Shown: one piece after another, positions 7,320-45,966 of the stretch
How positions within the stretch are numbered: the stretch's first letter is position 1
Layout: every line of letters begins with the position of its first letter
NCBI GenBank assembly: GCA_002803225.1
Contig: NXFV01001840.1
Location: forward strand, 18,924-82,923
Direction of reading: 5' to 3'
Origin: Gamarada debralockiae
Taxonomy: Eukaryota; Ascomycota; Leotiomycetes; Helotiales; Hyphodiscaceae
Length of the DNA: 64,000 nt
Made by a program: the position numbers and the translations under genes
The notes under the pieces: model-generated
Database searches by the model: none
What the model saw: the letters and a program-made list of their open reading frames with translations, nothing else
What the model was told of the DNA's origin: nothing

Positions 7320-9643
7320 TTATGGAAGTGAGCACTTGCGCGACGTCATCCTGGCTCTCTGGGTTCCAAGCAAGACTTCCCTCATCAGTAGGCTCACGAT
7401 TGGAGGTGCTGCCAGTTGCGATGTTTCTAGCATTTGCTTCCGCAACGTCACTGCTTTCAGCAGTTTGAACATGCGTTTCGGCAGAAACATCATGGGAAGT
7501 TGGCGGCATTGGTGAAATGAGGGAGATAAGGGGATTAGCATGATGGTCCGGATATGTATTTCTTCATGGGCCCTGCGTCTTTGGATCTCCGCATTCCACT
7601 CCTCGACGGATGCTTTTTTGCCTCCATCATACGTTTTATCCCAAGCAAGCTGTCGCTTCAATTCAGTTGTATCTGAATACGGATGTACGCGCGGGAGGGA
7701 TTCCTCGTTAGAGCCATTGTTGTCCTCTTGGCTAGTAGAGTCTGTTGGTGATGTGAGAGCTAAACGTGTCAGGAAGAGCTTGTCAACTCTGATTCGTCGG
7801 ATTTAGACTCACACGTAGTTCTCTTGCTCCTTTTATTTACGGCATTCTTAATACTGTCCCCGAATTTTGCGTACCATGGTATACGGCCCATGCCCATGCA
7901 ACACGACTCTTCCTCGCTCCCGTCTGCCTGTAGGTCAAAAAAGGAGCCCGCATAATTCTGATAGATATTGTTATCCAGTATAAAGTCAATTCCTAGAACA
8001 ATTGGTAAACGGCATGTCGGTAAGATGTCGAAGACTGTTGGCACGAGCTTGCCATCAGGCAGAGAAATATGAGTGTACACTTGTCCAATTGTAGCCTCTT
8101 CCGGCCCCGTTGGAAAAGTAATCCAGCCAAGATTCTCAGGTTTTGATCTGATCTCAAACCTTTGCTGAAAAGCCCAATCAGCACTCATAACATTCCGGCG
8201 AGAGCCAGTATCTGCAAGTGCCGCAAATGGTACCTCATTTTCCATCGTTGCCTTGAATCGTCGGTGGGTCTCTCCAACTCGATAGAAAGACCACAAGTTT
8301 CTCGCCACGAAAAGACAGCGGACAAATCGGTGGATATATTTCTCCATTGTCTGTGTCGCTTCCAAGAACTGATTACCCAGGAGAAGGTCGAAGGAGAAAT
8401 GCTTGACCACGCGTGCAAGCACCATCACTGTCTGACCAGGAGTGTCTGAGCAGGCAATAGGTATATTGACCTTTCCTAATGAGAACATTCGCCTCTGATT
8501 ACCTAGAGTGAACCACATTGGGTCTGGAATCACCTGCTCCCCCATCTCACGACATCGTTTTTCTGAAATTATCGTCTCTTCTGAACCAGTGTCGCCAATT
8601 CCAGAGGTTAGTTGACCTTTGACAAAGACTCGAAGGCCACGCGCAGGTGTGTATAATTCTTCGTCCACAAATACGCCTCTCTGACTGTCGAAAATACGTT
8701 TCATTAGAGTATGGTCTTGGCAACGACAGGAAAGGCCTTTGTTTGTACAACGAAAGCAGATACGGTAGCCATCCATAGGACAGGTACTACAATAGTAGTA
8801 ACCAGCTACAATCTCACCACCACAACTGTCACAGGATATCAAAGAAGCAGTTGGCTCATTATTTTCATCGATGAGTCCTCTCCCAAAACAATCTTCCTTC
8901 AAGGTTTCGACGTCGTTCTCGGCTAGTTGGATTTCCTCAACCAATTTAGCCTCTTTAATTTGGCAGTTGTCTAGCCATATCTGGTCTTCTGAATTCAAAG
9001 ACAATCCGAATTGCCGACGTGAGTCCCTTTCTTGTTCTAGTAACTCCTTGTCGTTGATGAGGTCGAGTAGTCTTTCTCTCAAGAGATCCAGATCCCCTAA
9101 TCTCGAAAGAAATGAATTCATCAGCGGATGAGGATACGCCATCTCTTTCAGATTGTTCAGAGAACTTGGTGGCTCTTGGGAAATGTTCTCATTTAGCTGG
9201 TTGTAATACACTTCATCCTCCATGCGCAGAAGCCTAAATTCCTGCTCATTTAGTTGCTCTTCAAGTTGGTTGTGATCGTCACACAAAAGGTTGTATTCAT
9301 CGCTAACATTTTGGCAATCCTGCCACAATTCTGGGATAGTCGTGCCGTCCGGGACCACAGAACCGGGCTCAAGAAGTTGTAATCTGATCCTTTTCAAGAG
9401 CAGATCATCAGCCATAGACTTTGCTGTTCCCTTCTTCCTTAGCCTAGCCCTTACTTCTTGTATTTGGTGGCGCAGGCTCCATATGTCGGCCCTTAACTTT
9501 TTGCATTGTTGCCATGTTCTGTGTCCTTGCGGCCCTTCTTCTTCTACTTGAGCGGATACATAGGGTGTCGTTGGATGTGTCGTGGGCTCTGGCGCGGCAG
9601 ATGTCAAGGCCCGGTTACCCAAAGTCGAGGACATGTCAGGCAT
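7320..9643 (-). CDS. Coiled-coil protein with ZZ zinc finger and tandem retropepsin-like domains
   Basis: Exon 1 is 9643-7813 and exon 2 is 7759-7320, joined by a 53-bp intron (gtgagt...CTGAC...tttag). Residues about 40-260 form the coiled coil shared by the other minus-strand genes of the array (DSWSLR-like ADIWSLRHQIQEVR, ADD, LEEQLNEQEFRLLRMED). Residues about 271-312 are a ZZ-type finger with paired cysteines CDSC, CSTC, CFRC and a CRCQDH end. Two retropepsin-like aspartic protease domains follow: DTGSEETIIS with downstream DLLLGNQFLEA, and ADTGSRRNVMSADWA with downstream LPIVLGIDFI. Both keep the catalytic D-T-G. ATG at 9643 (MPDMSSTLG) was chosen because the in-frame codons before it are not ATG. 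The last about 75 codons have two readings: the frame used ends at 7320, but a one-base shift near 7545 would give a better acidic tail ending at 7279. It is divergently paired with the DUF6594 gene. Confidence 0.75.
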
Positions 9644-10367
9644 CACGTTGCGTGTCAAAACCCCATCGTAAAGTGGGTGTGGTAAAATGGGCTCATTTAT
9701 TTGAACCTCTGAGTCGCTGCCGCTTCGATGGTGCTCACGTCCCGCTCATTCGTACTAGGATACTCTCGAGATTGAATGTCCGAACATTTCAAGCTCGCAC
9801 TCTTGTGCCCCGTCTCCAAACTGTTACTTTCTTGTTGAATGCTGTTTATTCGTGCAATTATTGAAGGCGTTTGCGAGGCTCCGCCCCCAAAGCTGCCCGC
9901 TATGGAACGAGAGTCCTTGGAGGGTAGTATCGAGAGTGCCGAGAAAAAAGTAAAGGTCCCCGCTACCCGCGGTACTTGGCTCTGCTATTGCTGTACTTGT
10001 TTAGGATCAGGTAAGTTCTGAGAGGTGGATGGTACGTGGGGCGGATACCGGAATTGGCGGGGTATATGCTGGCGGAGGCTCTATGCGATGCACTGCAGAC
10101 GATGGACTGGCAAGTAGACTTGGATTGCTCCAACTGTGCTGCCTGGTTGTAATGTATCTATTGACGAGAGCTTGGGCAAAATTTGGCCAGAGAACTAAAG
10201 AGCGATGGAGGAGTTCTTTTCGGTGCACGGTGCCTGTCGGCTTCCGCTGGTGGCTTTTCTTGTGATTGGTTGCGCTCCGCCCTCTCTGTCACGCGTTTGA
10301 CGACCACGTGCATACTATATTAAAATCGCAACACAGCGAAGATCCTCAGCCGTAAAAAGAGAACAAG
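9644..10367. promoter_or_regulatory. Divergent intergenic promoter of pair 1
   Basis: A 724-bp region between the start codons of the coiled-coil/retropepsin gene (minus) and the DUF6594 gene (plus). No other gene is supported. Unlike the four DUF6590 pairs it has no GGCGCC site. Confidence 0.5.
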
Positions 10368-11447
10368 ATGAATGATCCCGCAAGAAATGGTGGATCTCGC
10401 AGGGAACGTCGTCGACTGGAAGGCTTTCCGAGCCTCGCGCACTTCATCAGCGAAGACGACGATGCTGCGATATTCCCGTGTTTTTGGCGAACTTGGCGCC
10501 CGCAATTTGCTTTATCTTCAAAGTAACTTGAATGAATTAGATATCCAACTCAAAAGTCTCGACGACGAAGATGCGAAGAACAGTCCCGGAAATCCAGGAC
10601 TTCGGATTTCGGCCCGTGAATATCGGAGCTTGAAAGCTGCTGCACATCGTGAGAAAGACTTTGAAATAATCGACCCTCAAGCAGCACCGTACCGTGAATC
10701 CTCTGGCCTGGGAAGGAGAGATCATGATAGCAATTATTTCAGCGATCGAGTGGAGCTGCACAACAAGATAAAGTATGCAATGAGAGAGTACCGTACGTGG
10801 ACAAATATCAGGCCTTCCCGACCGCCACACTAATGGACATTCAGGAGAAGCCTTGATTCAGGAGCAGCAAGTCAGAAGCTTTAAACCTCCTCCCGAACGC
10901 TCGCTATCGAATTTCAAGCGGTATTTTGCTCGCAAAGATGGAAACGTATTGTTGGGTGACGACGAAGACCTTCTAGACAAGCCAAGAGATTTAGTCGCAC
11001 TAAGTCCCTCGGAAGACGACCGCCTCAACAACTTCCTCCGATATACATGCGGATATTGTTTCCGGGTAAGCGCCACCAGACCTCAGATTTCAGCCCAGTA
11101 CATCACTAACACGCTTCTAGGATCGAAAACGCAAGCCGCTATCAGACATCGACATTTTCTATTACTCGGAGCGAGCTGTGCAACTAACTGGATATACCAT
11201 AGCAACTATTCTGAGTGGAATTCTACTCGTAGGTGCCATGGCCTGTCTGTCACTTGTGTATAATCGCTCGTGGCGATTGAGATTGGGGATGGTGGCCCTA
11301 TTCACATCTTTATTTGCTATTGTGGTTGGTCTTCTTACGAGTGCCAAGAGATCTGAAGTTTTTAGCTCGACGGCTGCGTATGCAGCGGTATTGGTGGTGT
11401 ATGTCAGTGGAAGTCTAGGACCTCCGAATGGATCTGCCGGAATGTAG
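10368..11447 (+). CDS. DUF6594 membrane protein with one-base frameshift near the start
   Basis: Exons are 10368-10792, 10845-11065 and 11121-11447 (introns gtacgt...ttcag and gtaagc...ctag). The product shows the DUF6594 order: GFPSLAHFISEDDDAAIF, then FGELGARNLLYLQ, KYAMREYREALI, DLVALSPSEDDRL, and a C-terminal three-helix membrane region (ATILSGILLVGAMACLSLVY, FTSLFAIVVGLLTSAK, TAAYAAVLVVYVSG). The N-terminal part and the rest lie in different frames: an extra C in the CCC at 10475-10477 splits AAIF from FGELGARN. An overlapping ATG at 10372 opens the downstream frame with an unrelated N-terminus, so a protein could still be made. DUF6594 proteins are common in ascomycetes and of unknown function. 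Here the gene takes the place filled by DUF6590 in the other pairs. Confidence 0.7.
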
Positions 11448-12595: not shown

Positions 12596-12947
12596 TTTCC
12601 TGAATTATCCACAGGCGAGTCTAGTACGGATTCTGACCGAGTTGACGGAGTGCCAGAGCAACAAGATTGCGAAAATGTGGGGGTCCAAATTCCTCCTTAT
12701 CATCTAAGTCAGCCTACTACTCGTTGTCAAAATATAAGACTTCGTTTGAGAAGGGGAAGTCCTCCAGCTAGCCCGACCGCTTCGACGCTCCACTAGGGCG
12801 TTTCAAGCGTGTCCCTTTAGACAGTCCTAATACTCGCCGATATCTTTTGCACCAAGGTCTTACACAGTGGCACCTTGAGTTCCCACATGGCGAACGAAAT
12901 TTCGCCGTGTCTACATCCTTCTGAACTCTATTGGGCAGTGGCAGAGG

Positions 12948-13898
12948 TTGGGGGTCTTGTCTAATAGGGAAGACGGGCTAAAGGGCACAATATTGGACGA
13001 CTTGTGCCACTTGGCAGGATCTGCACAGTCTACTCTCCCCAACGACAAGGTATTCGGATTGCTCGGCCTGTTGCCTCAAGCTATATCTAGCAAGATCACG
13101 ATTGATTACAAGCGGGACAAGACAGAACTTTCGTCTGAATTCACTGCGGCAGTTTCCATTGCAAATGAGAATAGTGGAAACTTGGAGAGAGCAGGGGACG
13201 TAAAAATGCCGAGTACGACAGGCAATTCCATCTATGCCTTGCAGGATGTGCCAGGGAAAGGCCTCGTTGCAATGGAAAAGATCTCTAAGGGCATGCGAAT
13301 TCTTTCTGAAGAGGCTGTCATTACAGTTAATGAACCGATCAGCGGCGAGCGGCTACGAACATCTATCTGCCAGCAAGTCAAAGCCCTCAGCGAACACCAA
13401 CGGCGAGCCTTCTTATCTATGCAGAATACCCACCTATTTAAGAATGCCGCTGAGCAGTATCTCGGGATCGTTCGAATAAACTTCTTACCTGCTGAAGCCG
13501 TCGGAGATAAAGGGGCAATCTTCCTAGAAGCATGCCGCATCAACCACGCCTGCGATAACAACGCACAGAAGAACTGGAACGAGAAGATCAAACGATACAT
13601 AGTGTATGCTTTGAGAAACATTAACAAAGGCGAAGAGATCACAATAACCTACCTAGGCCCTCTCAAGAACCGCAAAGTCCGGCAGAAGACTCTTCAAGAA
13701 AAGTTCAGCTTTACATATTTGTGCCGTCTCTGCTCCTTGCCGCCAGAGCAGAGCCAGGAAAGGGACAGGAGATTGGAGGAGATTCACCGCTTAGACGGTG
13801 TCATCGACCAACTCGGCACGGAAGGGATTTTGGTATCCCCACTCCGGACCCTCCTCTACTTCGATCAACAGGTATGCCTCTATAACGAGCAAGGATGA
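12948..13898 (+). pseudogene. HET C-terminal piece fused to a SET domain
   Basis: One 316-residue frame joins two unrelated parts. Residues about 10-65 match the region after a HET domain (DDLCHLAGSAQSTLPNDKVF, GLLGLLPQAI, ITIDYKRD). From about residue 95 it is a fungal SET-domain protein: YALQDVPGKGLVAMEKISKG, FLEACRINHACDNNAQKNW, NINKGEEITITYLGP, then the post-SET-like CRLCSLPPEQSQERDRRLEE and the start of the helical tail. The NHxCxxN and GEEITxxY motifs that bind the methyl donor and lysine are intact. A TGA stops the frame at QVCLYNEQG, inside the helical tail that normally continues for over 100 residues. It is probably a chimeric, truncated relic; a functional fusion is possible but less likely. 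Confidence 0.65.
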
Positions 13899-18116: not shown

Positions 18117-19463
18117 TCATGGCGTTTGTTGTCTATTGGGTCCGTTGTGTGCGATTTTATGGCCAACATCTGAGTGACGGTGGAATCCAAGAGGTAATCG
18201 CCGTGGTTGGAAGGACATCTTCAGACTGTGGAAACTGTCCCTGCTCTTGGACATAGAATCGGAAAAATAGCCGAGATCCGCATTGGACGACCCTTTGGGT
18301 GCGAAGGGCTTTGGTGCAACTGTGTTTGTATCTGTTGGGCTACTCGAGTGCCTCCTGTTTGCATGGTTTGTTACTTCTGGTTGGTAGGTTGGATCGCGAG
18401 GGGAGTATGCGCCTTGCGGGGGCGATGGTTGTTGTTTGGGTGGAATAGCAGCAGCATCCAATTCCCAGTAGGCAATAACTAGCTGTGACCAATTGGATGG
18501 GCGTTTTTCAATTTCGGAGTCGAATTGTGCGACAAGTAGATCGGCTTCAAAGTGTGAAAGAAGCATCATCTGGAGAAGCCACTTATTGATCCGAGTTCTC
18601 CTTGTGCCAAAATTCGTCGATAGTTCAGGATAGCGTTCAGTAATAGCATCGGGTCGAAGCGGAAGATCATGAGGACGCCCGACCATGTCATAGCTATCCC
18701 AGCTGCCAGGAGCATGATCAATCTCTCCAATCCCAGAATCTGAATCCCATTGAGAGAGGTAGTCTTCGCTAGGAGGTATGTAAGCCAATCCAAGCAGAAC
18801 TTGTGATGTGTCGATATCTAATGTTGCATGCATTTCTTTTCCTGAAGGCCCAAACTGGAGGCTAGATGACGATACCACAGAGTCGGAAGGCCGAAAAGGG
18901 AGACTATCCTCCGCATCATGGCTATCCTGATCGTAATTGCTCTCAGCATCGGAGTATGAGCCGTATTGACTGGACGGGACACTCATGGGAGGCGGTGGGT
19001 ACGTGTTTGCCAATTCGAACTCGTCTTTGAATTCATCGTAAAGATCTTCTTCTGTTTGTCGCAATTTCCAAATGTGGCCCTCCCATCGTTGTTCGGCTTC
19101 AATGCCCTCTTGCTCCAGAGGCCCGAGGCCATCCCGCGCAGCCTGACACTCAGCTCCGAGCCTTCGCAATTCTGCGAATTTCTCGAGGGGTTCTTCCGCC
19201 ATAAATCGTTGGACTTCTCTCATGAATGCTGCATCGCATAACCAGACCGTCTGTCTCTTGTTTCCCACTTCGCGCATCTTCTGTCGCGCATCGATTTGTG
19301 CACTCGCCGCTTCCTTCTGCAGCCTTGCGATTCGTTGTATAGCCTGCATTAATTCCACCAAGCGAGATTTGTCCACTGCCTGCAAATTGCCGTCCATCTC
19401 CGGCCTTTCTTCAACCCCAATATCCACTGATTCCCTCTTCCCAACACTTGTATTTTCCACCAT
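18117..19463 (-). CDS. Coiled-coil array protein, pair 2
   Basis: A single exon of 448 residues; ATG at 19463 (MVENTSVGK). Residues about 30-150 form a heptad-rich coiled coil holding the array signature in the form AARDGLGPLEQEG at about 108-120, followed by LRQTEEDLYDEF. A Ser/Asp/Pro-rich low-complexity linker (155-270) leads to the shared C-terminal module RINKWLLQM...WSQLVIAYW (about 291-333), then a basic, Ser/Pro-rich tail. It is the shortest member: the proline-rich N-terminal arm and the second coiled coil seen in the pair 3 and pair 4 proteins are missing. Function is unknown; a scaffold role is inferred from the coiled coil. It is divergent to the DUF6590 gene 941 bp away. Confidence 0.75.
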   Translation of the reverse strand: MVENTSVGKRESVDIGVEERPEMDGNLQAVDKSRLVELMQAIQRIARLQKEAASAQIDARQKMREVGNKRQTVWLCDAAFMREVQRFMAEEPLEKFAELRRLGAECQAARDGLGPLEQEGIEAEQRWEGHIWKLRQTEEDLYDEFKDEFELANTYPPPPMSVPSSQYGSYSDAESNYDQDSHDAEDSLPFRPSDSVVSSSSLQFGPSGKEMHATLDIDTSQVLLGLAYIPPSEDYLSQWDSDSGIGEIDHAPGSWDSYDMVGRPHDLPLRPDAITERYPELSTNFGTRRTRINKWLLQMMLLSHFEADLLVAQFDSEIEKRPSNWSQLVIAYWELDAAAIPPKQQPSPPQGAYSPRDPTYQPEVTNHANRRHSSSPTDTNTVAPKPFAPKGSSNADLGYFSDSMSKSRDSFHSLKMSFQPRRLPLGFHRHSDVGHKIAHNGPNRQQTP

Positions 19464-20404
19464 GCCACCGGCGGTAGAGTATAGGATACCCTTTCGGGAT
19501 ATCGGCAGGCAATGCAGGAGAAAGTGTGTGTATAGTTGACTAGACGACTTTGACAGTCAGTGCCGCGCCGCGTCGAAAAGCCTGTGCAAGCGTCAGCCAA
19601 AACACTCTAATTTCCCGCTTGCAAACACGTAGCAGTCTCTGCTAACTTGAGAACCAAATACAACTGATCTGAGTGGAAATTTCAGCTGTTGTCCAATATG
19701 CAAATTGACACACTGGATGGGTACCTGTCGGGCAGCAATGTTGCATGTTTCCGTAGCATTTCTCTGTTTGGCGCCACCTGTCCTTCATACGTCAGATTTT
19801 AGGCCTCAGAGTAGAAAAGGTTCAGCGATACGAATTTTATTTAGTTCGAGCCGAAATATTCATCCGTGTTCAACATACGCGACCGCGTGGGGAGCACGGG
19901 AGGACGCGTGGGCTGTGTTATACCTAGCGAGTTCAGTTTGGTGGAAGCAAGGCTCGAAAGGGAAGGAGGCCTTTTAAAGCAGCATCTATCGTAAAAAATG
20001 CGCCTCTAGATCATTAGCGTTCGTGTTTGCAACAATCACAACCCGCTGTCCTGGAGGCCAATGGTTGTTCATGGATAATCCATATTTATTTCCATGTTGC
20101 AACCATTACAGTCGTTTCATTCCAGGGTACAAATCGGGATTCCAGACCAATTAGCCCCTCCATCATGCTAATCTAGCGGGCTATGCGCCATTCCGCTGCA
20201 TAAGTCTCACTCTTTGGCATAGCGCTTGATGCTCAAAGATACTTCATCATTCTGGCTAATGGGATTCAGTCTGAGGCTCTTCGTTGAATGCGGAGTTGAC
20301 GGTATGAGTACTACGCATAAATCCACAACGGATCCCGGCCTTGGGCTGCAAGCATCCGCGGCCGGTATCAAAAATGGCCTAAAAGTGCTTCAAAGCAGCC
20401 AAAC
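19464..20404. promoter_or_regulatory. Divergent promoter region of pair 2
   Basis: Contains GGCGCC at 19770-19775 (tttggcgccacctg) and a cATAAA TATA-like box near 20317, about 85-90 bp before the plus-strand ATG. No gene lies between the two starts. Confidence 0.5.
19770..19775. promoter_or_regulatory. GGCGCC site, pair 2 promoter
   Basis: Palindromic hexamer in the divergent region, in the context tttGGCGCCacctg. A counterpart occurs in each of the other DUF6590 pair promoters. Function inferred only. Confidence 0.35.
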
Positions 20405-21977
20405 ATGGCTCCTTCAACTGGTAGAGCCACGAAATGGTCAGAGAACAAGTGGGACGCCGATCGACAGCAGTGGTACAGCACTCGAAAAAACGCCAAAGGG
20501 GAGTGGGAGTACCACTACCACCCATCTGAGACAACAGCCACAACTCAAGACGACCCAACCATTCCTCGCTCTTTTGGCGAAAAGGATTCGACTGGGGCCG
20601 AAACCTCTCAACACCAAGCCTATGACTCGCAATCTGTAGCTGTTGAGAGTCTCTATGGACCAGCTGCCACAAGCCAATATGACACTGCTGTTGCTCCTGC
20701 CGTTGGGTATGCCAGTACCTCCGGATATACCACAGCAAACGCAGCTGCAAATACAACCACAGATCCATATGATGCGCCAACATCTCCCAGTTACGCCTCT
20801 AACGCAGTCGATCCATACGACGATCAGTTCACGACAATAGAATCTACAGGTTCCACTGCGAGTTCATCCACTGCTGCTGGTTACACTGTGGCTGGGTACA
20901 CTTCAACTGGGTCCGCAAGCTATGATACACCTGCAACATCTAGCTACATATCTTCCACTACGAACTATGTTTCGACGTCCCCAGACTCAATCACACATGG
21001 AATGCGAACTCTTAGCTTCACTCCGCAACCTAGGATCCCGGAGCAAGGTATGCGAGCACCTTTCTTCCGATGAAAGTTATTTTTAACTCTCTGAAGGCCA
21101 AGCAGAATCCTCAACTGCCTACCAACTACTGCAAAATGTAAAGAATATATACAAGGCCCCCAACAGTAACAATTGGGAAGAGTTGGACGAACGTAAGTCT
21201 CCTCCTGGGCAGTGGGTAAAGTTTCGCGTTTTGATTTTGGCATAGGGTACCGTGTGATTGAAGAAAAAAAGCAAAAAAAGTTTTGGAGAGTCGGCAGAGT
21301 TTTCATGATGCTCTGGACAGAGCCTGCGAGGGACACTCCACGCGTTCCCGGAGGTGGTGGCACTCGCAATGGGTCCCACTTTAGCACTGTTTATTTGAAC
21401 GCCACAGTATACAGTGAGATTCGTCGATTTGTGGTGATTGGTGTTGGGTGGGGGAATACTATCTGTTCGTAAGTTTCAATTCTCTTCGTCAACAGCCTCT
21501 TCTAACGTGCTAAGACCCATTCACACCTATTCCAACCAGGCGACGCTCAAGCCCAATCTACCCGAGCCTCAGCAGCACGCTATAATCTATACGAGCGATA
21601 CTGCGCCCGAACAGCTTTGGTACGAAGCGGAGGATGGGTCGATTGTGAGCGAAAATCTGACTAAGGATCCGATCCGAGTCAAACGGGAGCAGACTGACCC
21701 GGAAGGGGACCTTGGCACGTTGTCCCGGCTTAACTATAGTAAGATATATACTGTCGAGAACTATGTCCGAGTTCTGAATATCGGCATGGTCCACCAAGAT
21801 TCACTTGAGACACTCAATCACAACTCTTTTTTGCGGCCACGAACCGAGCTCCCCGAGAGACCGAGGAATCACCCGTCCAGGAAGGATTCCAAGGACGACC
21901 ATCACAAAGGTGACAGAAAAGGAAAGGGCAAGGCAAAAGAGACGAAAGGAAGCCACTCTGGGCGGAGGCACACCTGA
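20405..21977 (+). CDS. DUF6590 protein with N-terminal low-complexity arm, pair 2
   Basis: Exons are 20405-21047, 21097-21192, 21246-21468 and 21515-21977, all with canonical GT-AG introns; the reading frame is kept through each. The N-terminus carries the array motif KWSENKWDADRQQWY...GEWEYHYHP (a WW-like Trp/Tyr pattern). Residues about 75-215 are a Ser/Thr/Tyr/Ala-rich low-complexity arm. The DUF6590 domain follows: KFWRVGRVFMMLWTEP, YSEIRRFVVIGVGWGNTICS, HAIIYTSDTAPE, SRLNYSKIYTVENYVRVLNI. The tail is strongly basic (KDDHHKGDRKGKGKAKETK), possibly a nuclear or nucleic-acid-binding signal. The intron found between GR and VF in pairs 3 and 4 is absent. Function of DUF6590 is unknown. Confidence 0.8.
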
Positions 21978-27340: not shown

Positions 27341-27415
27341 CGGGTGGCCAGACTCACGGTCCCGGGAAGATGCCACCCTATCCTTTCCATTTCAAATTCG
27401 CAATACGCATCAACA

Positions 27416-34892: not shown

Positions 34893-36815
34893 TTAAATGC
34901 TCTGGGAAAACTTTGACCCGGGGATTGGTGGTGGGAGCTGCCGCTCAAACTGCTCCTTCGATTCGGTAGATTCAATGGATTCAAGAGACTCAGATCCAGA
35001 GCTGGGATGCAACAGGGAACTCCTAATTGCAATACTAAAAGAGTAGCTTTCTCTTGCGTCCAAAGGTGACCTTGTTGAGTGCTGAGACCGTCCTGGTGCT
35101 TGCGTTGCGACCCCAGAGGAATAGACGCGGTATTCAGATGCTCCTTTTCGTGCTCCGTCTTTGTACCAGAACGCCAGTACGTCAGATTGCCACTTTTTAT
35201 CTTCGATATGCCCGTAATCTCCCTCAAAAGTTCTTGCGAGCAAATTGACATCTAGTGGGGAAGATCGTAGCTGGTGAAGTAGCCACTGGTTTATATGGTC
35301 ACCCGCACTATGAGTCGTCTCCCCAACGTTGGGACCTGAGTTGGAGAATCGTACTTCCGTCCGCCCAGGGAGTGGGAGAAGCACCGGGAACTTCACAAAC
35401 TCAGATCGCTCTGCTCCGGCATCCACTTCTGGGGCTTCTTCGATGAAAGTTTGTCGCTCTTGTTTCTCGAAGTCCGTAGGATTGCCGTCTTCATCCACCA
35501 GCCCTCGGTCGAGGCAAAGATGCTTCAATCTCTCCGCCTCTGCTTTCGCTTCATTGATTTCATTCAGCAAGCTGGCTTCAAGATTGTCATAGTCGTCCAG
35601 CCACTCCTGATCATCTGGGGCCAGATCCAGACCCACCCGCAATCGGGCCTCTTTCTCAAAGTCCAAACGAAATTTCTCCTCTATATGGTAGTCCAGACGC
35701 TCCTTCAAGATATCCACATCTCCTAACTGAGAAAGGTATTTAGATACTAGAGGATGAGACTCCTGACCGACCTCGGATTCGCTATACGTAGAGGCCTCGT
35801 GCGAATCCGTCACAGGACTTGTTTGCTCTTGCTGAAATGTCTCGGGAGCACTCTGTCGTTTGTAGAAATTTTCCTCTAGTTTGGTGAGCTCAAACTCGTC
35901 TCTCCCAAGTGCGTCTTCCAGGAGATTGCAATCATCTTCCAGCGGCCCGTATTCATCTCTAGCCTTTTGACAATCATCCAACAGTTCTGCCATGGACTTT
36001 TGCTGCTTTGATATGTCCTGATTCTCTAGCGTTATACCAAGGCCCCACATCCTGACATATTGAAAATATCTGTCATCAGCCGTTGACCTCTCTTGTTGCT
36101 TTTCCCTTAAAACTTTCCGCAACTCGTGGATCTTTGTTCTTAGACTCCAAGTTCCAGCCCGACGCTTTTTGATCTTCTGCCACTCTCTATCCAGTGATAG
36201 TCGAACTTGTCTCGGCCTATCATCTAGTCCCGCCTCCCACGTCCTTGAGGCTGGAACTGTGTTTGATGGGCCTGGCCCAGGTCCCGGTCCCGGTCCCCGT
36301 TCCGAAGGGTGTAATTCGAAAGCAAATTTTTGACTGCCCATTTGAGAATTTTCGTGGTATGAGCCCTCTCTGACAGTGACAGAATTTTGGTCGAAAGTTG
36401 CTGGAGGTTGAAGGATAGAGATTTTCGATTGCAGTTGCACCGCAGGAGGGGGTCCACGTGGCGCAAGTCGAGGAGCGTCGGAGTTCTCCAAAAAAGCTCT
36501 ATAGTCGCTTTTGGTTTCATTTCCCGAGTCCAACGTTGTCACAGGTTCCAAAAGACTCTTGAGATGGTCCTTGTCTTTATCTGATCGAAAAGAAGGATCG
36601 AGGGACGGATTAAAAGAGCGCCCCGTAGGCCCTCCGCCACCATCATATAGCCCGAGCACTGGATGTGGGGAAGGCAGAGATTCAGGTTGGAATCGATGAT
36701 GCTTCAGTGGAAAGTCTGTGTGGTTCAGATTCAAGGTCCCAGGATGCGTGCTTGCTTCGTGTTGGTACCCGCCATCGTGGCGCTCTGAAATCCAGGCCAT
36801 AGGAGCGGTGAGCAT
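34893..36815 (-). CDS. Coiled-coil array protein, pair 4
   Basis: A single exon of 640 residues (ATG 36815; a second ATG lies five codons on). The disordered N-terminus includes a Pro-Gly run (GPGPGPGPGP) at about 174-183. Coiled coil 1 (about 203-320) contains GTWSLRTKIHELRKVLREKQ, STADDRYFQY, the signature DDCQKARDEYGPLEDDCNLL and EFELTKLEENFY. Coiled coil 2 is about 355-440 (LGDVDILKERLDYHIEEKFR), ending LVDEDGNPTDFE. The C-terminal module reads EFVKFPVLLPLPG, HINQWLLHQLRSSPLDVNLL, SDVLAFWYKDG. It is the nearest relative of the pair 3 protein. Function is unknown. Confidence 0.8.
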   Translation of the reverse strand: MLTAPMAWISERHDGGYQHEASTHPGTLNLNHTDFPLKHHRFQPESLPSPHPVLGLYDGGGGPTGRSFNPSLDPSFRSDKDKDHLKSLLEPVTTLDSGNETKSDYRAFLENSDAPRLAPRGPPPAVQLQSKISILQPPATFDQNSVTVREGSYHENSQMGSQKFAFELHPSERGPGPGPGPGPSNTVPASRTWEAGLDDRPRQVRLSLDREWQKIKKRRAGTWSLRTKIHELRKVLREKQQERSTADDRYFQYVRMWGLGITLENQDISKQQKSMAELLDDCQKARDEYGPLEDDCNLLEDALGRDEFELTKLEENFYKRQSAPETFQQEQTSPVTDSHEASTYSESEVGQESHPLVSKYLSQLGDVDILKERLDYHIEEKFRLDFEKEARLRVGLDLAPDDQEWLDDYDNLEASLLNEINEAKAEAERLKHLCLDRGLVDEDGNPTDFEKQERQTFIEEAPEVDAGAERSEFVKFPVLLPLPGRTEVRFSNSGPNVGETTHSAGDHINQWLLHQLRSSPLDVNLLARTFEGDYGHIEDKKWQSDVLAFWYKDGARKGASEYRVYSSGVATQAPGRSQHSTRSPLDARESYSFSIAIRSSLLHPSSGSESLESIESTESKEQFERQLPPPIPGSKFSQSI

Positions 36816-37170
36816 CGATATTCCTGCTTATGTAGCTCCGGGATGAAGGTTTGGACATTAGGATGATATGGATCGACATGAGCACAGGAAAGCTGGCAGT
36901 TGGTGTCGAATGAACGGAATGAGGTCTCGTGAGGCAGACGAGCGATCACACGAAAATCCACCGTGTCAGGTCTCGGGCTGAGCCTCACTTTTGACGCGCC
37001 CGTTACGGACACCGTATTCGGTCCTTTCCTCAGAGTTTGCGCTCTCAAAACAGCCCAGAGTTTTTGCCTCCCAAGGCGTTAAAAGCAGCGAGACGGGTGG
37101 GTCCGATAAAATAGCCATACCAAGAACCCCCTGCTAATACTACGGTGAACTGGAGGACATCCCTATCTTT

Positions 37171-37176
37171 GGCGCC
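37171..37176. promoter_or_regulatory. GGCGCC site, pair 4 promoter
   Basis: In the context tttGGCGCCtgcaag, 256 bp before the DUF6590 ATG, nearly the same spacing as in pair 3. Confidence 0.4.
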
Positions 37177-37345
37177 TGCAAGCACACTGATGCGTAAGTA
37201 ATTCCGCTATCATACCCAATCATTGGCTGAGCTTTTCATCTCACATGTGGAGCTTTATCGACAATCACTTTAAAGCTGCATTTGAGCGTGTGAACGTTGT
37301 GGAAGTCTGCAACCACCTTTTAAGCCGCAAAGAAACCCTTCTGTG

Positions 37346-37354
37346 GATAAAATA
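37346..37354 (+). promoter_or_regulatory. TATA-like box, pair 4 DUF6590 gene
   Basis: gataaaata followed by ggcgggtg, 81 bp before the ATG; position and 3' context match pair 3. Confidence 0.45.
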
Positions 37355-37426
37355 GGCGGGTGTTGCGCATCCTCACCCCCTTCAGAGAATGCCAAACTCT
37401 CTGAAGTCAATCCGCGAAAAGCGGAT

Positions 37427-39338
37427 ATGGCTTCCTCCCGTCGACATCGGTCAAGAGGGAATCATCCTCCTCCCATTGAATTCCCCACTGCGTGGAGCGA
37501 ATGGCAATGGAATGACACATACCAACGATATTATCGATTCCGTAAAGTAGGAGAGACAGGTGTAGCAAGTAAGTGCCTGATATTTCTATACATAACTATT
37601 CCTGACTCTGTAGATGATGATTGGGAGTACCAATATCGCGACGTTGAAGCTCCTCGGGACCAGGATGGCGACCCCGCAGCCACTGTGGCTTTAGCCGCTA
37701 TCTCCGGATCTGCGGAGACACATGATGAAGTCGCAGAAGAATATACAGAAGAGCCGAGCTACACAATAGATCCTCCTGATTCTGCTGTTGCAGGCCTGGT
37801 TGGATCATTTAGTCGGGCGACTTTGTCTGGTGGAGGAGAGACACAGGCACCGCAATACTCTGTTGCGTTCGGGCTAAGAGAAGAGAGAATCGGCAGCTTT
37901 AGCAGAGGTATTTGAATTATGTTTTTGCTTATTGCTTTTCTGTACGGATTTTTCCGAGGTCTAATTAATGGCTCTTTTAGGAGGACTTAATGACTTAAAT
38001 GTCCGAGGGGACGAATCTCATGTCGACCGTCGTATTACGCCCCAACATCCTTCTACAACTCTTGATCCTTGTAAGAATACTCTCAGTAACTCCTCCTATC
38101 AACTCAAATTCTAATGTGCAATAGCTTTCAAGATTCGGCCAAGTTCTGACTTTGTATTTGGGAGGGCAAGTCATACCATTCCTATCCTGGCGATTCAACG
38201 GTCACGACTAACTCATTGGAGGTTTTCAAAGTTCTTTGGTCAGAACCAACTGGCAGTGGTGGGACTGAGATAACCCGTTCTATTAGGGGTTATCGGAAAG
38301 CAAAGTTTGGGGAGCAAGCATATGACTCGATTCGTCGATTTGTCGTTGTTGATGATAGGAAACCTGGCCATTGTATTTGCTTGTAAATCCCCTGTTGTCA
38401 TCCTTTAGCCTCATCACACTTTTGCTAATCTGAAAAAAAGGCCTATCTTGACTTATGGAGGACAAGGAACTATGAAAAGGGGAGTTCATTCCGAGAGTCA
38501 CGCCGCTATTTTTACAGGCAGAGGCGCTGTTATGAAGCCGGGCGAAAAATTGACCAAGAAGTCTGTCAGAATGATCCCTGATTCAGAGCGCCACAAACTT
38601 GACCCTGCCTCACGTATCAACTATGCTAAGGTTTATACTGTTGAGCATAATGTCAAGGTGAGTTTTATAGGAAGAATTGCTCAAAAGTATGAGCAGCAAG
38701 TCACGACGGACTACAACGACACCCACGGCCTATTGCCTGATCGACCAACTTATGCCGGAGACGTCGCTGAGAATGTTTTTGACTATGCTGAGGGTGCAAA
38801 TCCGCAATATCCAACTCAGGATGTCGCAGCGACATCCTGGCAAACAGCACAAACGCAAGATTACAACGCTTATTATGCATCCACTACAACAGAATCCTCA
38901 TACGGTATCTACGCGACGTCAAACTGGTCAACAAACCAGAATTTGCAGCCCTCATCCACGTATACTCCCTCGGCATACCATATCCCAGCTAGCACAACGT
39001 CAGTTACGTACTCGGTTCCATACACTCAAAGTTCGATATATCAGACTCCGTCAACTGTGGCGGAGCCTGGGGCCTATGACACAACTCCAACATATGGCCA
39101 TCACTCAGGAGAGGTGGGAGAAGCAGAATATGGCGCAAGTAATGAAGGGGAGGCAAAGTCATACACTGAAAGTTCGTTATATCAGACTCCGTCAACTGTG
39201 GCGGAGCCCGGGGCCTATGACACAACTCCAACATATGACCATCACTCAGGAGAGGTGGGAGGAGCAGAATATGCTGCAAGTGATGAAGGGAAGGCAAAGC
39301 CTGAAGATTTTGATCCCAATTATGATGTTTCTGACTGA
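37427..39338 (+). CDS. DUF6590 protein with repeated C-terminal arm and a GC-AG intron, pair 4
   Basis: Exons are 37427-37568, 37614-37907, 37981-38070, 38125-38165, 38222-38382 and 38441-39338. The fourth intron (38166-38221) starts gcaagt rather than gt, ends ggag and has a CTAAC branch site; it splits the domain at FGR/VFK, exactly where pair 3 has a normal GT-AG intron. The N-terminus carries AWSEWQWNDTYQRYYRFRK then DDWEYQYRD. The domain reads VFKVLWSEPTGSGG, YDSIRRFVVVDDRKPGHCIC, LPILTYGGQG, SRINYAKVYTVEHNVKVSFI. The C-terminal arm is rich in Tyr/Ser/Thr/Gln and includes a 47-residue unit present twice in tandem. The protein ends acidic (NYDVSD). Confidence 0.8.
39021..39302 (+). repeat. 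Tandem 141-bp duplication inside the DUF6590 arm
   Basis: Units at 39021-39161 and 39162-39302 differ by few substitutions and keep the frame; each codes for SSxYQTPSTVAEPGAYDTTP and the following TYxHHSGEVG.AEY block. The high identity implies a recent in-frame duplication. Confidence 0.9.
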
Positions 39339-41021
39339 GTAAGTCAAGTAAGAGCTCTATCTTCCTACCTCTAAAGACCTAAAGCTCACAGACCTTATAG
39401 AATGCTTGGTCGATACGTTAAGTCACGCTGCAACGCTGACTATCTCGCCATCTGTGATGGCACAAATGCAAGGCGTGCGGCTGATTTCAGCCCGCCTATG
39501 ATGATGAATCATGATTCTCCTTTCTTTGGGCGGAGTTTGCCTTTGAATTGGGTGTTGATGTGGTGCGTTGTTGCTTTGGAAGATGCCACGAATCGACAGT
39601 GAAATGGCAGAATGCCCAGTCTCCTTCAATCATTCATTTTTGTATCGATTTTGTTGGGGAAACCATACTATGAGTCCTTGCTCTTGACATTAATGGACAA
39701 CAATTGATCATTGGCCAACAATACGAGCGCATATAAGTGAGAATGAGTCTCGCATTGAAACCCGCTTTCAGCGTCAATTATGCTCCCAGCCCCGGACCAA
39801 CGCAGAGAGCCACTCACCATGAGCCACATCGCCCCTTCCAAAAATGGTCACAATAAGAGCAGCAAGGGCTCGGTACTACCCAAGAGGGCTAATCAGAATC
39901 AGGCAATATTTGTGTCCCGAAATAAACTCAGAACCGTAATCTCGAAACACAGTTGGCAAGGCTGTAAATCTACGCCCCCTGCACTTGCATATCGATTCCT
40001 CCGATCTCAGGGGTATCGAATGATTTTCACAGCTCATATCACTCCGAAACCTGCAGATACGACTTCATAAATTCCGACCCTATCCTAGCGGTGTGGGTGG
40101 TGTAGTTACACAGACTCGTCTCAGCAAGGGGCACGCATGCTAGAATTTAGCCCCGACGAGGCTGTAGCTTTTGCCGAGAAAGTTTGCCCAAGGAACGCCC
40201 TGCTTACTTTTCATATAAGGTCATTGATACGATTGATGGCCGAAGGGAATGCCGCTGGGCCCAGTTATTAGGATTCCATGGCTTCGTCGAGCGACGCGGA
40301 TTGAAGAATCCCTTACAGGTTCTATGACGACTTCGTCGCTCTATCATTTGTAGCAAGGTATTTTCCAGAGAAAACCCTACTGATTTATCCTAGCCAAATT
40401 AAAGTGTTACTTTTACCTCACGAAACGCATTGAGAATCTCTACATAGATCTCATCTTGGCAGTCATAACAGCTTCCACTTGGAATAGCTAGAAATAGAAT
40501 ATACTAGCAATACAACGTACAATTACCATCGAGGGAAAACACAAAGGGTTAAAAGGAACCCAAGAAGAAAGACAAGTAAATAGATAACCAATACGTGGCT
40601 TCAAAGATGGCTAGAGTCCGATGACCGAGAACACAGCCTGACTGTCACTGCCGGTGCAAAACATCCCGTATGGACGATGAGACAAAACTTTTACCAGATA
40701 TTTGGGTTTAACCACTATCTATGAGTGATATTCCTCAGCCAACAAAAGAGCAGTCCATCGTATGTGCACTGCAAAGTCTAGATACCTGTCCAGAAACACC
40801 GTCCTTGCCTCTGTCTACGCGATCCTGAGCCCAATCCAGAATCGACGTGAAAAGCTGCTGGCTTGCCAGCGCTTAAGCTCATTACTCATGAAGTTAGCCT
40901 GCACCAGAAAGGTGATCAAGAAGAGAACAACCAGCCCTTAACACCTTGCTACACGCAAGCCCATTCCCCAAAACACATCAAAAAAATATTTGTACAAGCC
41001 AGAGAGACGAGCAGCGCGTAA
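39339..41021. other. Intergenic region
   Basis: No firm gene. One ATG-started frame at 39819-40070 (MSHIAPSKNGHNKSSKGS...) gives 83 residues, basic and unrecognised. The rest is 3' flank of the convergent neighbours. Confidence 0.3.
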
Positions 41022-42794
41022 TCATATACTGACTGCTCTCGACACACTTGCTGTCCTGTTGCGCACAGCAAGTCCTTGCTCAGTACGAGTCTCTTTAGGC
41101 CCCTCGTCATTTGTGGTTGGCGTCCCGCTGTCCCCCTTTTGTGTCCTGTATGACCCGACCTCGCTTTCCGTGATTTCTATCTCGACTCTTTCGCTATTCC
41201 CAGGACTAACATCCGAACTCCCTTCTGATTCTCCACTGTTGCTAGTGACTCCCAGTAACGCGTCCATTGTACTTAAAACATGTTTCTCTTGCGTCTCTTC
41301 GCCAGCATGATCTCTATCCCACCATCCAAGCACCAGTGTTGGCCACTCCTCGCCTTCAAGTTCCTTCCCATCTTTCTCATATTCGAGGACGATGAAAGTT
41401 CTTAACCTTAGCGTTTCGACAGGCGAGTCTTGTAACAGCTCCAGCATCCATTTATTCACATAATCCCGCTTGTCCGTGAAGTTGGTTTCGTGCGGCCAAT
41501 AGGAAGGCGTATGATCTGCTGCGTTGCGCAAAGGTGAGCGATCCAAGGCGTCATTGACGGATTCGTATATTTCTTCTACTAGCGCATCACGAGGCTCGTA
41601 GGCGTATTCTGATGCGGTGAAAAGGCCTTGGTCAATGCAGCGGTCGCGTAGGTCGTAGAGGTCATCCTCGACGCGTTGGAGAGTTTCGACGAGTTTTTTG
41701 TACACCTCTGGAAATTCGAACATGAAGGCAGTCTTTTCCTCCGACAGTTTCAGTTTGTACCGCGAGCGGAAGGTAAGTTCCTCTGTAAGGCTGTATTGTT
41801 CATTCTCTAGCTCATAGATTTCTTCTTTGAGGTGCTCTGCTTCTGTGACCTTTCCTAGATATTGTTTCACGAGCTCATTCTCAAGGTCGAGGTTTTGGAA
41901 CCCAACGTCTTCAGGTTGGTACGGCTGAACAAGGGGAGTCAATGGGGCGTCCAACTTGGCATCCGGCAGCTGGGTTAAGGTGATGTTGTTATGGGTGTAA
42001 AAGTGCATCTCCTCCTGCTCGAGTTCCTCTTCCTCATGATTAAGTCGGATTTCCAGGCCGTCGTATGCATCTTCAGCGGGGCCCAACTCGTCTTGAGCCT
42101 TTCGAGTTGCTTGATAATACGGGGCGAGGCTCTGAAGATTCTGAACATTGTCGCGTACCATTATCTCGTCAATTGCCCTCATAAGATTCGCAGTCGCATC
42201 CCGTAACTTCTCCCGAAGAAACTGTACGTCTTGTCTGCTCTCGTTCAATATACGTCGCGTCCGCAGAGCCCTTCCACGCAATATTTCAACTCGCTCCCGA
42301 GCTCGTATGTTCCTTGCCTGAATGTCGATATCCACTTTTGATTCTTCATCTTGATACCCTCTTATTGACTCGTATGCCGAGTCTTGTCGATTTGGGCTTG
42401 TAGTGTTGTTTAGGCTGTGGAGGGGCGGCGAGGAGCGGAAGGCATCTACTGGTCGAATTCGAGGCGTTCTATCGTGATTTGTGCTTCCGTGGTAGCTATC
42501 AGCTGGAGAGCTACGCATAGTAGCAGATTCATCCTCCAAGATAGAATTTTTATGCCCATGTCGGTGGGATCTTGGTGTGATATGGCCAGCCTCGTTAGAG
42601 CTTGCCGTTGATAGCAGTGTGAGCGCCTCCGTGGACGCTTGTCTTATCTCGTTCTCGAATTCGTTCCCTTCCGCAAATCGAGCGCTCTCTGGTTCTCTGG
42701 ATTTCGAATATTCAGACCACAATAACGGGGAAATTTTGTTGTGTTTTGGCGGCAAGGTTTGAGTGGCCGTCGAGCGTGGACTTCCATTTGCCAT
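41022..42794 (-). CDS. Coiled-coil array protein, pair 5
   Basis: A single exon of 590 residues, ATG 42794 (MANGSPRST). Residues 1-150 are disordered and Ser/Arg-rich. Coiled coil 1 (about 160-270) holds the diverged signature KAQDELGPAEDAYDGLEIRL and EEEELEQEEMHFY; coiled coil 2 is about 300-392. The C-terminal module is recognisable as YVNKWMLELLQDSPVETLRL ... WPTLVLGWWDRD (about 445-495). It is the most diverged of the four standard members. The tail is acidic and Ser-rich. It is divergent to the largest DUF6590 gene. Confidence 0.8.
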   Translation of the reverse strand: MANGSPRSTATQTLPPKHNKISPLLWSEYSKSREPESARFAEGNEFENEIRQASTEALTLLSTASSNEAGHITPRSHRHGHKNSILEDESATMRSSPADSYHGSTNHDRTPRIRPVDAFRSSPPLHSLNNTTSPNRQDSAYESIRGYQDEESKVDIDIQARNIRARERVEILRGRALRTRRILNESRQDVQFLREKLRDATANLMRAIDEIMVRDNVQNLQSLAPYYQATRKAQDELGPAEDAYDGLEIRLNHEEEELEQEEMHFYTHNNITLTQLPDAKLDAPLTPLVQPYQPEDVGFQNLDLENELVKQYLGKVTEAEHLKEEIYELENEQYSLTEELTFRSRYKLKLSEEKTAFMFEFPEVYKKLVETLQRVEDDLYDLRDRCIDQGLFTASEYAYEPRDALVEEIYESVNDALDRSPLRNAADHTPSYWPHETNFTDKRDYVNKWMLELLQDSPVETLRLRTFIVLEYEKDGKELEGEEWPTLVLGWWDRDHAGEETQEKHVLSTMDALLGVTSNSGESEGSSDVSPGNSERVEIEITESEVGSYRTQKGDSGTPTTNDEGPKETRTEQGLAVRNRTASVSRAVSI

Positions 42795-43427
42795 GAACAG
42801 AGGGTAGCGTTCCTCATCGGACCTGACGGAATCTCAGGCAAAATGGAAGAGTGTCTCGTAGCACCGACTATAAGTGGAAGATATTCGTTGGATTGAAACC
42901 TTTCTGTAGGGACTTTGCGAGTGGTGCTTCTGAATGTAAGGCTTACGAACAACGCGAGGAGCCCGATACGGGGAGATGAGGCCACGCGCAATCATGCACA
43001 TATGAGGCTCTGCTGATTTCCTTTTTCGGCTGTCATTACGCTAGCAGCAGTAGAGAGAAGCACATATTGGTGTTATTAGTGGTGGGATTGTGTGGCTTTT
43101 AACCTCGTCTGCACAGGCCAAGCTGTATGGTTGCTCAAGGCTGGCCCGTAAAACATCCTTGCATGGTACTGTACTGTATCCCCAGCTATATGCAACGCAA
43201 CTAAACGAGGTCGCGGGAAGACGCGACATCCACTTCCATTGGGCGCAAAGTAGACATTACAAGTGCCGGATTCCAGGAATTTCGATATAGGCGCACCTTC
43301 TGTTTCCTTCAGGTCAGCATAGGGGCGTTTGAATGCTTCGAACCGTATTTGCGTTGAAACTTAGTTTACCTATCATTTCAAACGCATGTAGTTGCCAGGC
43401 GTCAACTTTATCCGCAATCCAGCAAGT

Positions 43428-43433
43428 GGCGCC
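43428..43433. promoter_or_regulatory. GGCGCC site, pair 5 promoter
   Basis: In the context agtGGCGCCgcttc, 383 bp before the DUF6590 ATG. Confidence 0.35.
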
Positions 43434-43733
43434 GCTTCTGCCTCCATCCCAACAGGGAACAGAGCATGTGACTCGGAGGGCCTATCAGCTATCTGCTTGT
43501 CGCAACACTCTGCTGCACCTCAGCCGTCTGGGACGTTTCATGCATCACACAAACATGAAGCACCACATTGGCGGCACAACGAAGACACTCTCCCCGCCAT
43601 TGTTCCCCCCAAAGGCGTCTGACACGTGTTGACCCCCTCACCCAGATCCGCGACCCCACTTCAAAAGCATTGCACATTGCTCATGTGGCAGAGCCTCAAT
43701 GCCCTGCACCCACACTTTCTCGGCCGGAAGATG

Positions 43734-43740
43734 GATAAAG
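43734..43740 (+). promoter_or_regulatory. TATA-like box, pair 5 DUF6590 gene
   Basis: gataaag, 77 bp before the ATG, in the position corresponding to pairs 3 and 4. Confidence 0.35.
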
Positions 43741-43810
43741 AGTCAAGGCTGGGAGGCGTGTTCGCCTGTCACTCGCTCGTCAGTGGAGACATCGCGTCCC
43801 CTCAGTGCAG

Positions 43811-45966
43811 ATGTCTGATGAGGTTTGGTACAAAGACCCCAAGACTGGGGAGCTCTACCAGGACAGGAAAGAAAGTACGTTGTGCTACATAATGTATAGC
43901 ATTACCATGTATCTTGGGTTACTGATTGGCTCCCACAGGAGGGAAGACTGTACGGTACTACATCAAAGACCCGCGTGAATCATCGACGAATAGGGGAGAG
44001 CTGTGAGTTTATATTCATCGCCGCCCTCCAATTGTATTTAACATAGCATTGTAGGTCCTCTAGTCGACGGGATCAACCACCTCGTCGGTCCCAAAGAGAT
44101 TCTGCCACCATCGATAACAAATCAGCCAGCAGATCCCATACTCAACGCGGCACATCCTCAAAAAGAGAAGCCTCAATTCGCCCCGAAGATGGAGGAAGGA
44201 GGGTCGAACGTGGCGGGGCTACATACATAAGCGACAATCGTGGTTATGGCCGACAGGACGAGTCATCGGGCGCTTATGGAGACCGGCAGACCCATAGCTC
44301 CTACCGCGACGTGGAAAGGGCTTATCATCCGTCGGGAGGGTACAACCCGCAGCAAGGGTATGCGGCTCCAATTACCAAGGACCCGGAGGATGATTTAGTG
44401 GGGGAGATGCAAAATCTATCCACGCATGACCATTACACACTGGAGCCCATTGCTTCATCACTTCCGGCCGCGACGGGGTACAATGAAGCGGCTTATGAAA
44501 CAAACCAGCTAGATTCCACTCCTGCCGACTATGGACAACCCCCTATCGCCTCACCAACGTTTCCTCCTCCACAAACCGTTCCGCTCTCGCGACAAATCAA
44601 GGGCACTCCAGGAGAAAGCGAGAAGCTTGACAAGAGCTACCAGGTACGAAACCATGATTACAAAAGATTTTTCAGGATTGGGAGAGTATTCAGTACCCTG
44701 TGGACTGAGGGCGTTGGAAACAATATCGAGAATATGGACCAGACCTTTGTGAGTGAGATAGTCTACAAAGAAAGGGTCCATTCCAAGGTCCGTCGTTTTG
44801 TCGTTGTTCGGGAGGGTGACAGGTCGGTCACATGCCTCCCTGTTACCTCTTATGATGGTGCTGGGCATAGAAAGCGTGGAATTCGATTGGAGGATCATGG
44901 CTTCATCCACAGCAAACACGCACCGAGAAGAGTTGAACATATGCTCTCGAAGTCGCTGAAGGTCATACTGTCCAAAGGTGCTGCACATATCAAGGACCCT
45001 TCTTTAGTCAATTATGGGAAGGTTTATACAGTCGAGACGAACGTCAAAGTCAAAGATATCGGCGATTTAGACGCCGACTCCAAGGCCCTTCTTATCCATT
45101 ATTTCCGCAAGGTATTCTTATTCATCGGAGAGGTGGAGTTACCGCGTGGAATTCACGATACCCCTCGACAAAGCAATGCAGTTCTCGCCCATGTTGGCGC
45201 CCATGTTGGCGGGGCAGCGTACGATGTCACATCGTCACCAGGTTACAACACCGGCCCTTTGCCTCCTGGTTATCCTCCGAACATTCCTTACTCCCAACCT
45301 TCCCCACAAGCCATGACCAGCGGCTATTCTGTGAGTACATATAACGTACAGAGTCCGATTGGATACGCAACTGCCTCAGACAATCGACAACCTACATTTG
45401 AATCGGCTGCATATCAGTCTGGAAGCGCTGAAAGTGGTTACACTACTCGCTCGGAAATACAAGCCCCTCGAGTCGATCAAGGCCCTAATTATCAATCCCA
45501 TCCCGAGACTGGATATTCTTCTGCGAGCATTGGTTCTGGTTACCCTCTAGCACCCGGGTACGACTCGATCGCGACTACTGTATACAATACCACGCCAAGT
45601 TATACATACTCCGCTACAGACAACCGGTATGGCACCTTACCCAGCGGGCCTTCCAGCACCACCCAGTACACAACGACTTATTCAACGTCTTATACCCCGA
45701 GAACATCTGTTCCTTACCCATCCGAGCATGCAACGTCTCGAGATTATTACCAGGACCAGGGCGGTGGTCAAGTCCCTTCTGGTGGCAGTCAATATTATGC
45801 AGATTACCAGACCAGCAACAACCCCCAGCCCACTTATCAATCCGCGGTTCTAGATGATCGTGAGGAAGAAATCATGCTTCCTACGCTAGAAGAAGCATCC
45901 ACGCATCGACGTGAAAGCAATGCGGGAAGTTCTCGCCCAGACCGGGACCGGAGGCGACGCCGTTAA
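43811..45966 (+). CDS. DUF6590 protein with long Tyr/Gly/Ser-rich arm, pair 5
   Basis: Exons are 43811-43874, 43939-44002 and 44055-45966. The N-terminus is MSDEVWYKDPKTGELYQDRK then KTVRYYIKDP, a diverged form of the Trp/Tyr motif of the other pairs. A basic Arg/Ser-rich linker follows. The DUF6590 domain is RNHDYKRFFRIGRVFSTLWT, HSKVRRFVVVREGDRSVTCL, PVTSYDGAGHRKRGIRLEDH, DPSLVNYGKVYTVETNVKVK, and HYFRK. From about residue 350 on comes a roughly 230-residue arm rich in Tyr, Gly, Ser, Pro and Gln (PGYPPNIPYSQPSPQAMTSG; TQYTTTYSTSYTPRTSVPYP), much like FUS-type low-complexity domains, ending in a basic RPDRDRRRRR. The GR/VF intron of pairs 3 and 4 is absent. Confidence 0.85.

Follow-up and report, generated by a model that had tools for sequence, protein, structure and literature searches.

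The window analyzed here, 64 000 nucleotides of the Gamarada debralockiae genome (contig C948, positions 18924-82923, in an assembly of 54.3 Mb and 1112 contigs), contains five divergent gene pairs. In each, a minus-strand gene of a family that we term M (M1 to M5) lies back to back with a plus-strand gene (P1 to P5), and four of the latter encode the DUF6590 domain. The same layout is found elsewhere in the genome, where DUF6590 genes face either another M gene or a member of a second, unrelated family that we term N. It is this second family facing DUF6590 that is new here. In this two-gene layout DUF6590 looks like the part that stays constant, and its partner like the part that can be changed. 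On balance we favour the view that each pair is a module of two genes, the products of which cooperate and are best produced jointly. A cooperating pair is the best reading because the layout recurs with an unrelated second family, and because the adjacency is found across species.

Four DUF6590 genes, on contigs C1048, C446 and C884 (two), have no M gene. Each lies opposite an N gene, with 867-954 bp between the proposed ATG codons, the N starts being chosen ATG codons without a homology check. The N proteins match one another, and all four N genes found face DUF6590; two genome searches revealed no members beyond these four. The main exons gave no match above the Pfam cut-off when scanned, and the first exons carry a zinc-like CxxC...CxxC motif, seen by eye. 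The possibility that M and N are one remote family was rejected, as they are related neither by profile nor by profile-profile comparison (hhalign probability 0.1). The association with DUF6590 therefore arose, or was kept, twice.

Five of the six M genes found lie opposite DUF6590, the remaining one (M1) being opposite a DUF6594 gene. The sixth M pair is away from the array of the window, on contig C1051, where the M gene (L022 3390-5240, minus strand) and a DUF6590 gene with its start at 5818 are back to back, 604 bp apart. This is the one long M gene outside the window; in addition a stretch on C805 matches the C-terminal module of M only. The genome searches, made with M4, M5 and M2, scored the best candidates only, and the M counts are therefore lower bounds. 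There are ten divergent pairs in total (M1 to M5, C1051, and N on C446, on C1048 and twice on C884), with 564-1016 bp between proposed ATG codons, and nine of the ten M and N genes, distributed over five contigs, are opposite DUF6590. Assuming a gene number of 12-16 thousand, and given the 17 DUF6590 loci, the expected chance of a DUF6590 divergent neighbour is ~1/1000 per gene. The observed frequency is far beyond chance, even if the five contigs are taken as five events.

Closely related DUF6590 genes can differ in the type of partner. The genome has 25 DUF6590 stretches, grouped into 17 loci, and the tree was constructed from 17 domains of 15 of these loci; C465 and C1093 were left out, having little or no match. 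The C1051 gene, with M opposite, and the C1048 gene, with N opposite, are sisters in this tree (98/97). P5, which faces M, has a domain 73% identical to the second one of C884a, which faces N. These two are in one strongly supported group, within which the nearest fork to P5 is that of C111, weakly supported (82/77). By count on the tree, the type of partner appears to have changed at least two times while the divergent slot stayed.

Some further relationships within the DUF6590 tree may be mentioned. The fragments at 31938-32087 of the window and at ~30.1-30.3 kb of C884 group with P2 (100/99), and look like decayed copies of the P2 subtype. There are also tandem DUF6590 genes, L024:6090-7544 and L026:231-1748, the first domains of which are sisters.

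The preliminary description of this DNA had five divergent pairs with starts 0.56-1.0 kb apart, and this is confirmed: an ATG is read at both proposed starts of all five, with gaps of 564-1016 bp. The Pfam matches likewise uphold DUF6590 in four plus-strand partners and DUF6594 in the fifth. DUF6590 (PF20233) is found above the curated cut-off at 21.3-21.8 (P2), 28.1-28.5 (P3), 38.2-38.7 (P4) and 44.7-45.1 kb (P5), and P1 is the DUF6594 gene. The proposed exon models of P3 and P4 put the DUF6590 exons together in frame. The features, in window coordinates, are these.

7769-9643, minus strand: M1, ATG at 9643; M core, ZZ-like Cys/His stretch (by eye) and two aspartic-protease-like stretches
9644-10371: divergent intergenic region 1, 728 bp
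10372-11396, plus strand: P1, DUF6594 gene of several exons, end approximate
18117-19463, minus strand: M2, ATG at 19463; the most divergent of the five M genes
19464-20404: divergent intergenic region 2, 941 bp
20405-21977, plus strand: P2; W/Y-rich head motif, Tyr-rich linker and two-piece DUF6590; introns incompletely modelled
24953-26851, minus strand: M3, ATG at 26851; M core and C-terminal module
26852-27415: divergent intergenic region 3, 564 bp
27416-28916, plus strand: P3, DUF6590 gene; proposed exons 27416-27554, 27623-27904, 27951-27991, 28055-28212 and 28268-28916
31938-32087, plus strand: DUF6590 fragment, kin of P2, with no M gene on the opposite side
34893-36815, minus strand: M4, ATG at 36815; M-family gene
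36816-37426: divergent intergenic region 4, 611 bp
37427-39341, plus strand: P4, DUF6590 gene; six proposed exons, one GC-AG intron; Tyr-rich tail with repeats
41022-42794, minus strand: M5, ATG at 42794; M-family gene
42795-43810: divergent intergenic region 5, 1016 bp
43811-45966, plus strand: P5, DUF6590 gene; DUF6590 at 44671-45075 in a single long exon
48359-48673, plus strand: DUF6590 stretch of the P5 group, with no M gene on the opposite side

The five minus-strand genes had been assigned to one family with a shared (A)R.EYGPLED core. The family stands, whereas the shared core does not, since it is intact in M3 and M4 only and degenerate in M1, M2 and M5. M1, M3, M4 and M5 match one another by BLASTP (M3-M4 1e-103, M1-M3 1e-45, M5-M4 4e-17). 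M2 is remote by this measure (best match 3e-5), but a profile from which it was excluded recovers it (E 2.5e-18 for 15 000 sequences). As controls, 200 shuffled M2 sequences scored no more than 2.9 bits against the M profile, and a coiled-coil open reading frame (ORF) at 58.7-61.7 kb that is SMC3-like by eye was left unmatched. By these comparisons M1 and M2, although remote, do belong to the family. The architecture comprises the core and a C-terminal WLL-type module, both of which are matched in M2, M3, M4, M5 and the C1051 gene; M1 matches over the core only, and the C-terminal module is absent. No Pfam family describes M: 53 members scanned gave only weak matches, several to coiled-coil families, among the matches listed (25 of 33 families). 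There was no match to M in a PDB sequence search at E up to 1, nor any relative in scans of genome_contigs and viral_contigs. M is probably a coiled-coil protein with a conserved C-terminal module.

The architecture of M1 is unusual, with the M core followed in the same gene by the ZZ-like stretch and the two aspartic-protease-like stretches, opposite a DUF6594 gene. DTG motifs of the protease-like stretches are at residues 385 and 512 of the ORF, and Pfam gave nothing for the ZZ-like stretch at E up to 1. Another M protein, P0039 of Amylocarpus encephaloides, contains PF24809 (DUF7708 per source), where fusion of gene models is possible.

Is the association restricted to this fungus? DUF6590 homologues (n = 68) were compared with M homologues (84 distinct, from searches that scored only the candidates sharing most words), the latter including proteins of Lachnellula, Mollisia, Sclerotinia and Rutstroemia, all Leotiomycetes of the order Helotiales. 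Eight named genomes occur in both sets, five of which have serial locus tags, and in three of these five the tags of an M and a DUF6590 gene are consecutive: Lachnellula willkommii (G001880/G001881), Sclerotinia borealis (4713/4712) and Rutstroemia WRK4 (8758/8759), which represent three families of Helotiales. Using equal length in bp as a proxy for the same contig, M and DUF6590 are also located together in Mollisia scopiformis and Clarireedia jacksonii (the Clarireedia tags having two strain prefixes) and on contigs of 309393, 16129 and 14516 bases, a total of five equal-length cases. A contig of 2295 bases (P0128, P0089) was dropped, being too short for both genes. The proposed association of the two families is found outside this genome, in Helotiales, by consecutive tags and by contigs of equal length.

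In these eight linked cases, known from tags or co-location and not from orientation, the DUF6590 protein is closest to P3 in seven, while P0113, on the 14516-base contig, matches the C1051 partner just as closely. The M protein is closest to M3 or M4 in seven; that on the 14516-base contig is M5-type, and this is therefore a case of co-location only and not a cognate pair. Adjacency persists between genomes even where 36-46% of the positions of the DUF6590 domain are different (distance table). The pair had been suggested to be a unit of duplication, and its inheritance as a unit is supported by the sixth pair on C1051 and the consecutive tags in three genomes, and more weakly by correlated divergence.

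The arrangement is not a recent one. Shared 8-, 9- and 10-mers in the ten intergenic regions, whether the six M regions or all ten, are within the range of shuffles, and local matches between the regions at E up to 0.1 are limited to two, with lengths of 14 and 13 bases; in the motif comparison the C1048 region extended to 5250 only and so did not reach the ATG at 5342. In another source a contig of 58314 bases carries both an M3-type protein (59% identical to M3) and an M5-type protein (57% to M5), a linkage inferred from the equal length of the contigs, and that part of the array therefore predates the split. Judged from these sequences the arrangement is old, in agreement with the suggestion that the pairs have diverged strongly and the layout has been kept over time, and a single recent block duplication is not borne out.

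The DUF6590 proteins often begin with a W/Y-rich head motif and sometimes have C2H2 fingers next. The DUF6590 domain itself comes after these, and is usually followed by a tail rich in Tyr and Ser. The C1048 gene has the head motif as in P3 and P4, together with C2H2-like fingers (by eye). C2H2 matches were found in five of 46 DUF6590 homologues (best E 0.00018), and on C805 the C-terminal module of M is located behind a C2H2-like stretch (by eye). With the zinc-like motifs of N these provide a thin hint that the products are perhaps nuclear. In the 66 of 68 proteins having a tail of at least 60 residues, the tail averages 8.4% Tyr and 14.9% Ser, and 39 of the 66 have at least 8% Tyr; the 84 M proteins average 2.6% Tyr. 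The tail of P2 has no Tyr. In a search of the PDB with the DUF6590 profile the best match was FUS (E 0.059) over the tail, and the matches were of composition type only. Thus the tails resemble the Tyr-rich low-complexity tails of FUS and TAF15 in composition, but not by homology. An SRA-type DNA-reading domain (SAD/SRA, PF02182) was considered for DUF6590 and rejected, with one sub-threshold match to a P3 exon (E 0.0039) and none in 46 homologues at E up to 0.5; a search of the genome itself also gave no SAD/SRA match, but the controls were silent too, so that absence is not shown there. The C1048 gene (L023, ~5.3-7.4 kb) seemingly has two head motifs with the C2H2-like fingers between them, by eye.

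How might such a pair function? With DUF6590 as the constant half and its divergent neighbour (M or N) as the variable half, the shared region of 0.5-1 kb would drive divergent transcription, keeping both genes in step. Most likely the two proteins would form a cognate complex, which may be nuclear; M or N would supply oligomerisation and the choice of target, and DUF6590 the shared activity. The paired products would then be co-expressed, associate physically, share a nuclear site and divide the labour. More tentatively, Leotiomycetes may have an undescribed modular system of two genes in which DUF6590 is the constant subunit. Unrelated subunits (M, N and perhaps others) would plug into the divergent-promoter slot and redirect the shared activity, and the system would diversify by duplication and exchange of partners. 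We regard this as possible rather than probable.

A number of observations weigh against cooperating pairs. No shared promoter motif was found in the six M regions or in all ten. Eight of the 17 DUF6590 loci have neither M nor N opposite; as four other DUF6590 genes face N, a general partnership of M with DUF6590 is not supported. The C805 place has no DUF6590 within the 9.9 kb examined, and M1 faces DUF6594 instead. Of the two partners originally proposed for M, DUF6590 recurs on C1051, while the DUF6594 pairing is a single case, since just three of the 111 DUF6594 stretches in the genome adjoin an M gene, all of them in P1. Of the 49 longer DUF6590 proteins, only 19 have the head motif when it is searched as a loose pattern. 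In Lachnellula suecica and Cudoniella acicularis, the other two genomes with serial tags, the M and DUF6590 genes returned are not neighbours, and in Hyaloscypha finlandica they are on contigs of different length. Finally, the distances of M and DUF6590 partners are correlated (r 0.70 over 13 pairs, reached in none of 10 000 permutations), but this is inflated by species relatedness, and the 13 pairs included the 14516-base contig, on which an M5-type gene accompanies a DUF6590 nearest P3 and the C1051 partner. The alignments comprised 45 of the 68 DUF6590 homologues with P5 (A3) and 49 of the 84 M homologues with four window genes (A4). Within the genome r is 0.72, a value reached by eight of 120 orders, so that co-divergence there is suggestive only.

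Could inheritance alone account for the layout? An ancestral divergent pair might have been copied into an old tandem array, the neighbours being carried along with no functional link. Four M/DUF6590 pairs do lie in one array, and the presence of M3-type and M5-type proteins on the 58314-base contig makes that array old, so that inheritance alone could keep neighbours together. Yet the unrelated family N is found in the same layout on three other contigs, DUF6590 genes that are sisters but located on different contigs differ in the family of the partner, and adjacency survives the 36-46% difference in the DUF6590 domain between genomes. We consider this explanation rather unlikely.

It is improbable that DUF6590 makes up one half, and M or N the other, of an incompatibility or immune system, a module for non-self recognition or cell death akin to the het loci of adjacent genes. 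In its favour, the pairs are repeated and strongly diverged, the DUF6590 gene on C769 adjoins an ORF with an N-terminal match to SesA (E 2.5e-8), and P0039 contains PF24809. However, neither HET, NACHT nor other recognition or death domains were found in the pairs, either in the precomputed Pfam domains of the 84 M and 68 DUF6590 proteins or by hmmscan (for M, among the matches listed, 25 of 33 families); the precomputed set has another domain in just one M protein (P0039) and one DUF6590 protein (P0057, PF26176). The links to SesA and PF24809 are single cases, and the role in recognition or stress response suggested earlier found no direct support. Proximity to HET genes was rejected as evidence of immunity, because HET is so common in this genome that nearness says little. 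Still less probable, and very much so, is a selfish toxin-antidote element held by linkage. Tight pairing, duplication and change of partner are compatible with it, but no known toxin or driver family was matched at significant score in the parts scanned, the WTF match in one of 46 DUF6590 homologues is not significant (E 0.27), and the proteins are long and conserved across genera.

The pairs may be compared with two known systems. At het-B of Podospora two genes lie side by side and their alleles are highly divergent (PMC10890737), and loci of this type likewise use two adjacent genes to determine a trait jointly; in contrast, no HET domain is found in the pairs here. Fungi also have evolutionarily conserved divergent gene pairs (PMC2871058), which share with ours the divergent orientation, the short intergenic distance and a neighbourhood kept across species. 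The pairs here differ from those as described there in that the families are uncharacterised, have many copies in one genome, and that one half is sometimes replaced by an unrelated family. The DUF6590 partners in the window (four) and on C1051, C1048, C884 and C446 all match PF20233 above the cut-off, the description of which says no more than that the function of the family is unknown, with no partner mentioned. No paper on DUF6590, DUF6594, PF20233 or PF20237 was found in the open-licence PMC literature.

DUF6590 proteins and their neighbours are unexplained, and are present in many Helotiales. Two unrelated families located almost only opposite DUF6590 here provide a cheap and direct functional handle, indicating the proteins that should be tested jointly. 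If sister DUF6590 proteins do work with different second subunits, this would be a eukaryotic two-gene module that exchanges a part while its genomic layout is retained.

Some features of the surroundings remain to be noted. The genome is rich in HET (at least 150, the best 150 of 770 candidates all having matched) and in DUF6594 (111 stretches). At L027:4679-9323 the DUF6590 gene and the SesA-match ORF are followed by an ORF resembling NB-ARC plus TPR (by eye). In the window, Pfam finds only SET in the ORF at 12879-13898, the N-terminal part of which resembles, by eye, the end of a HET protein.

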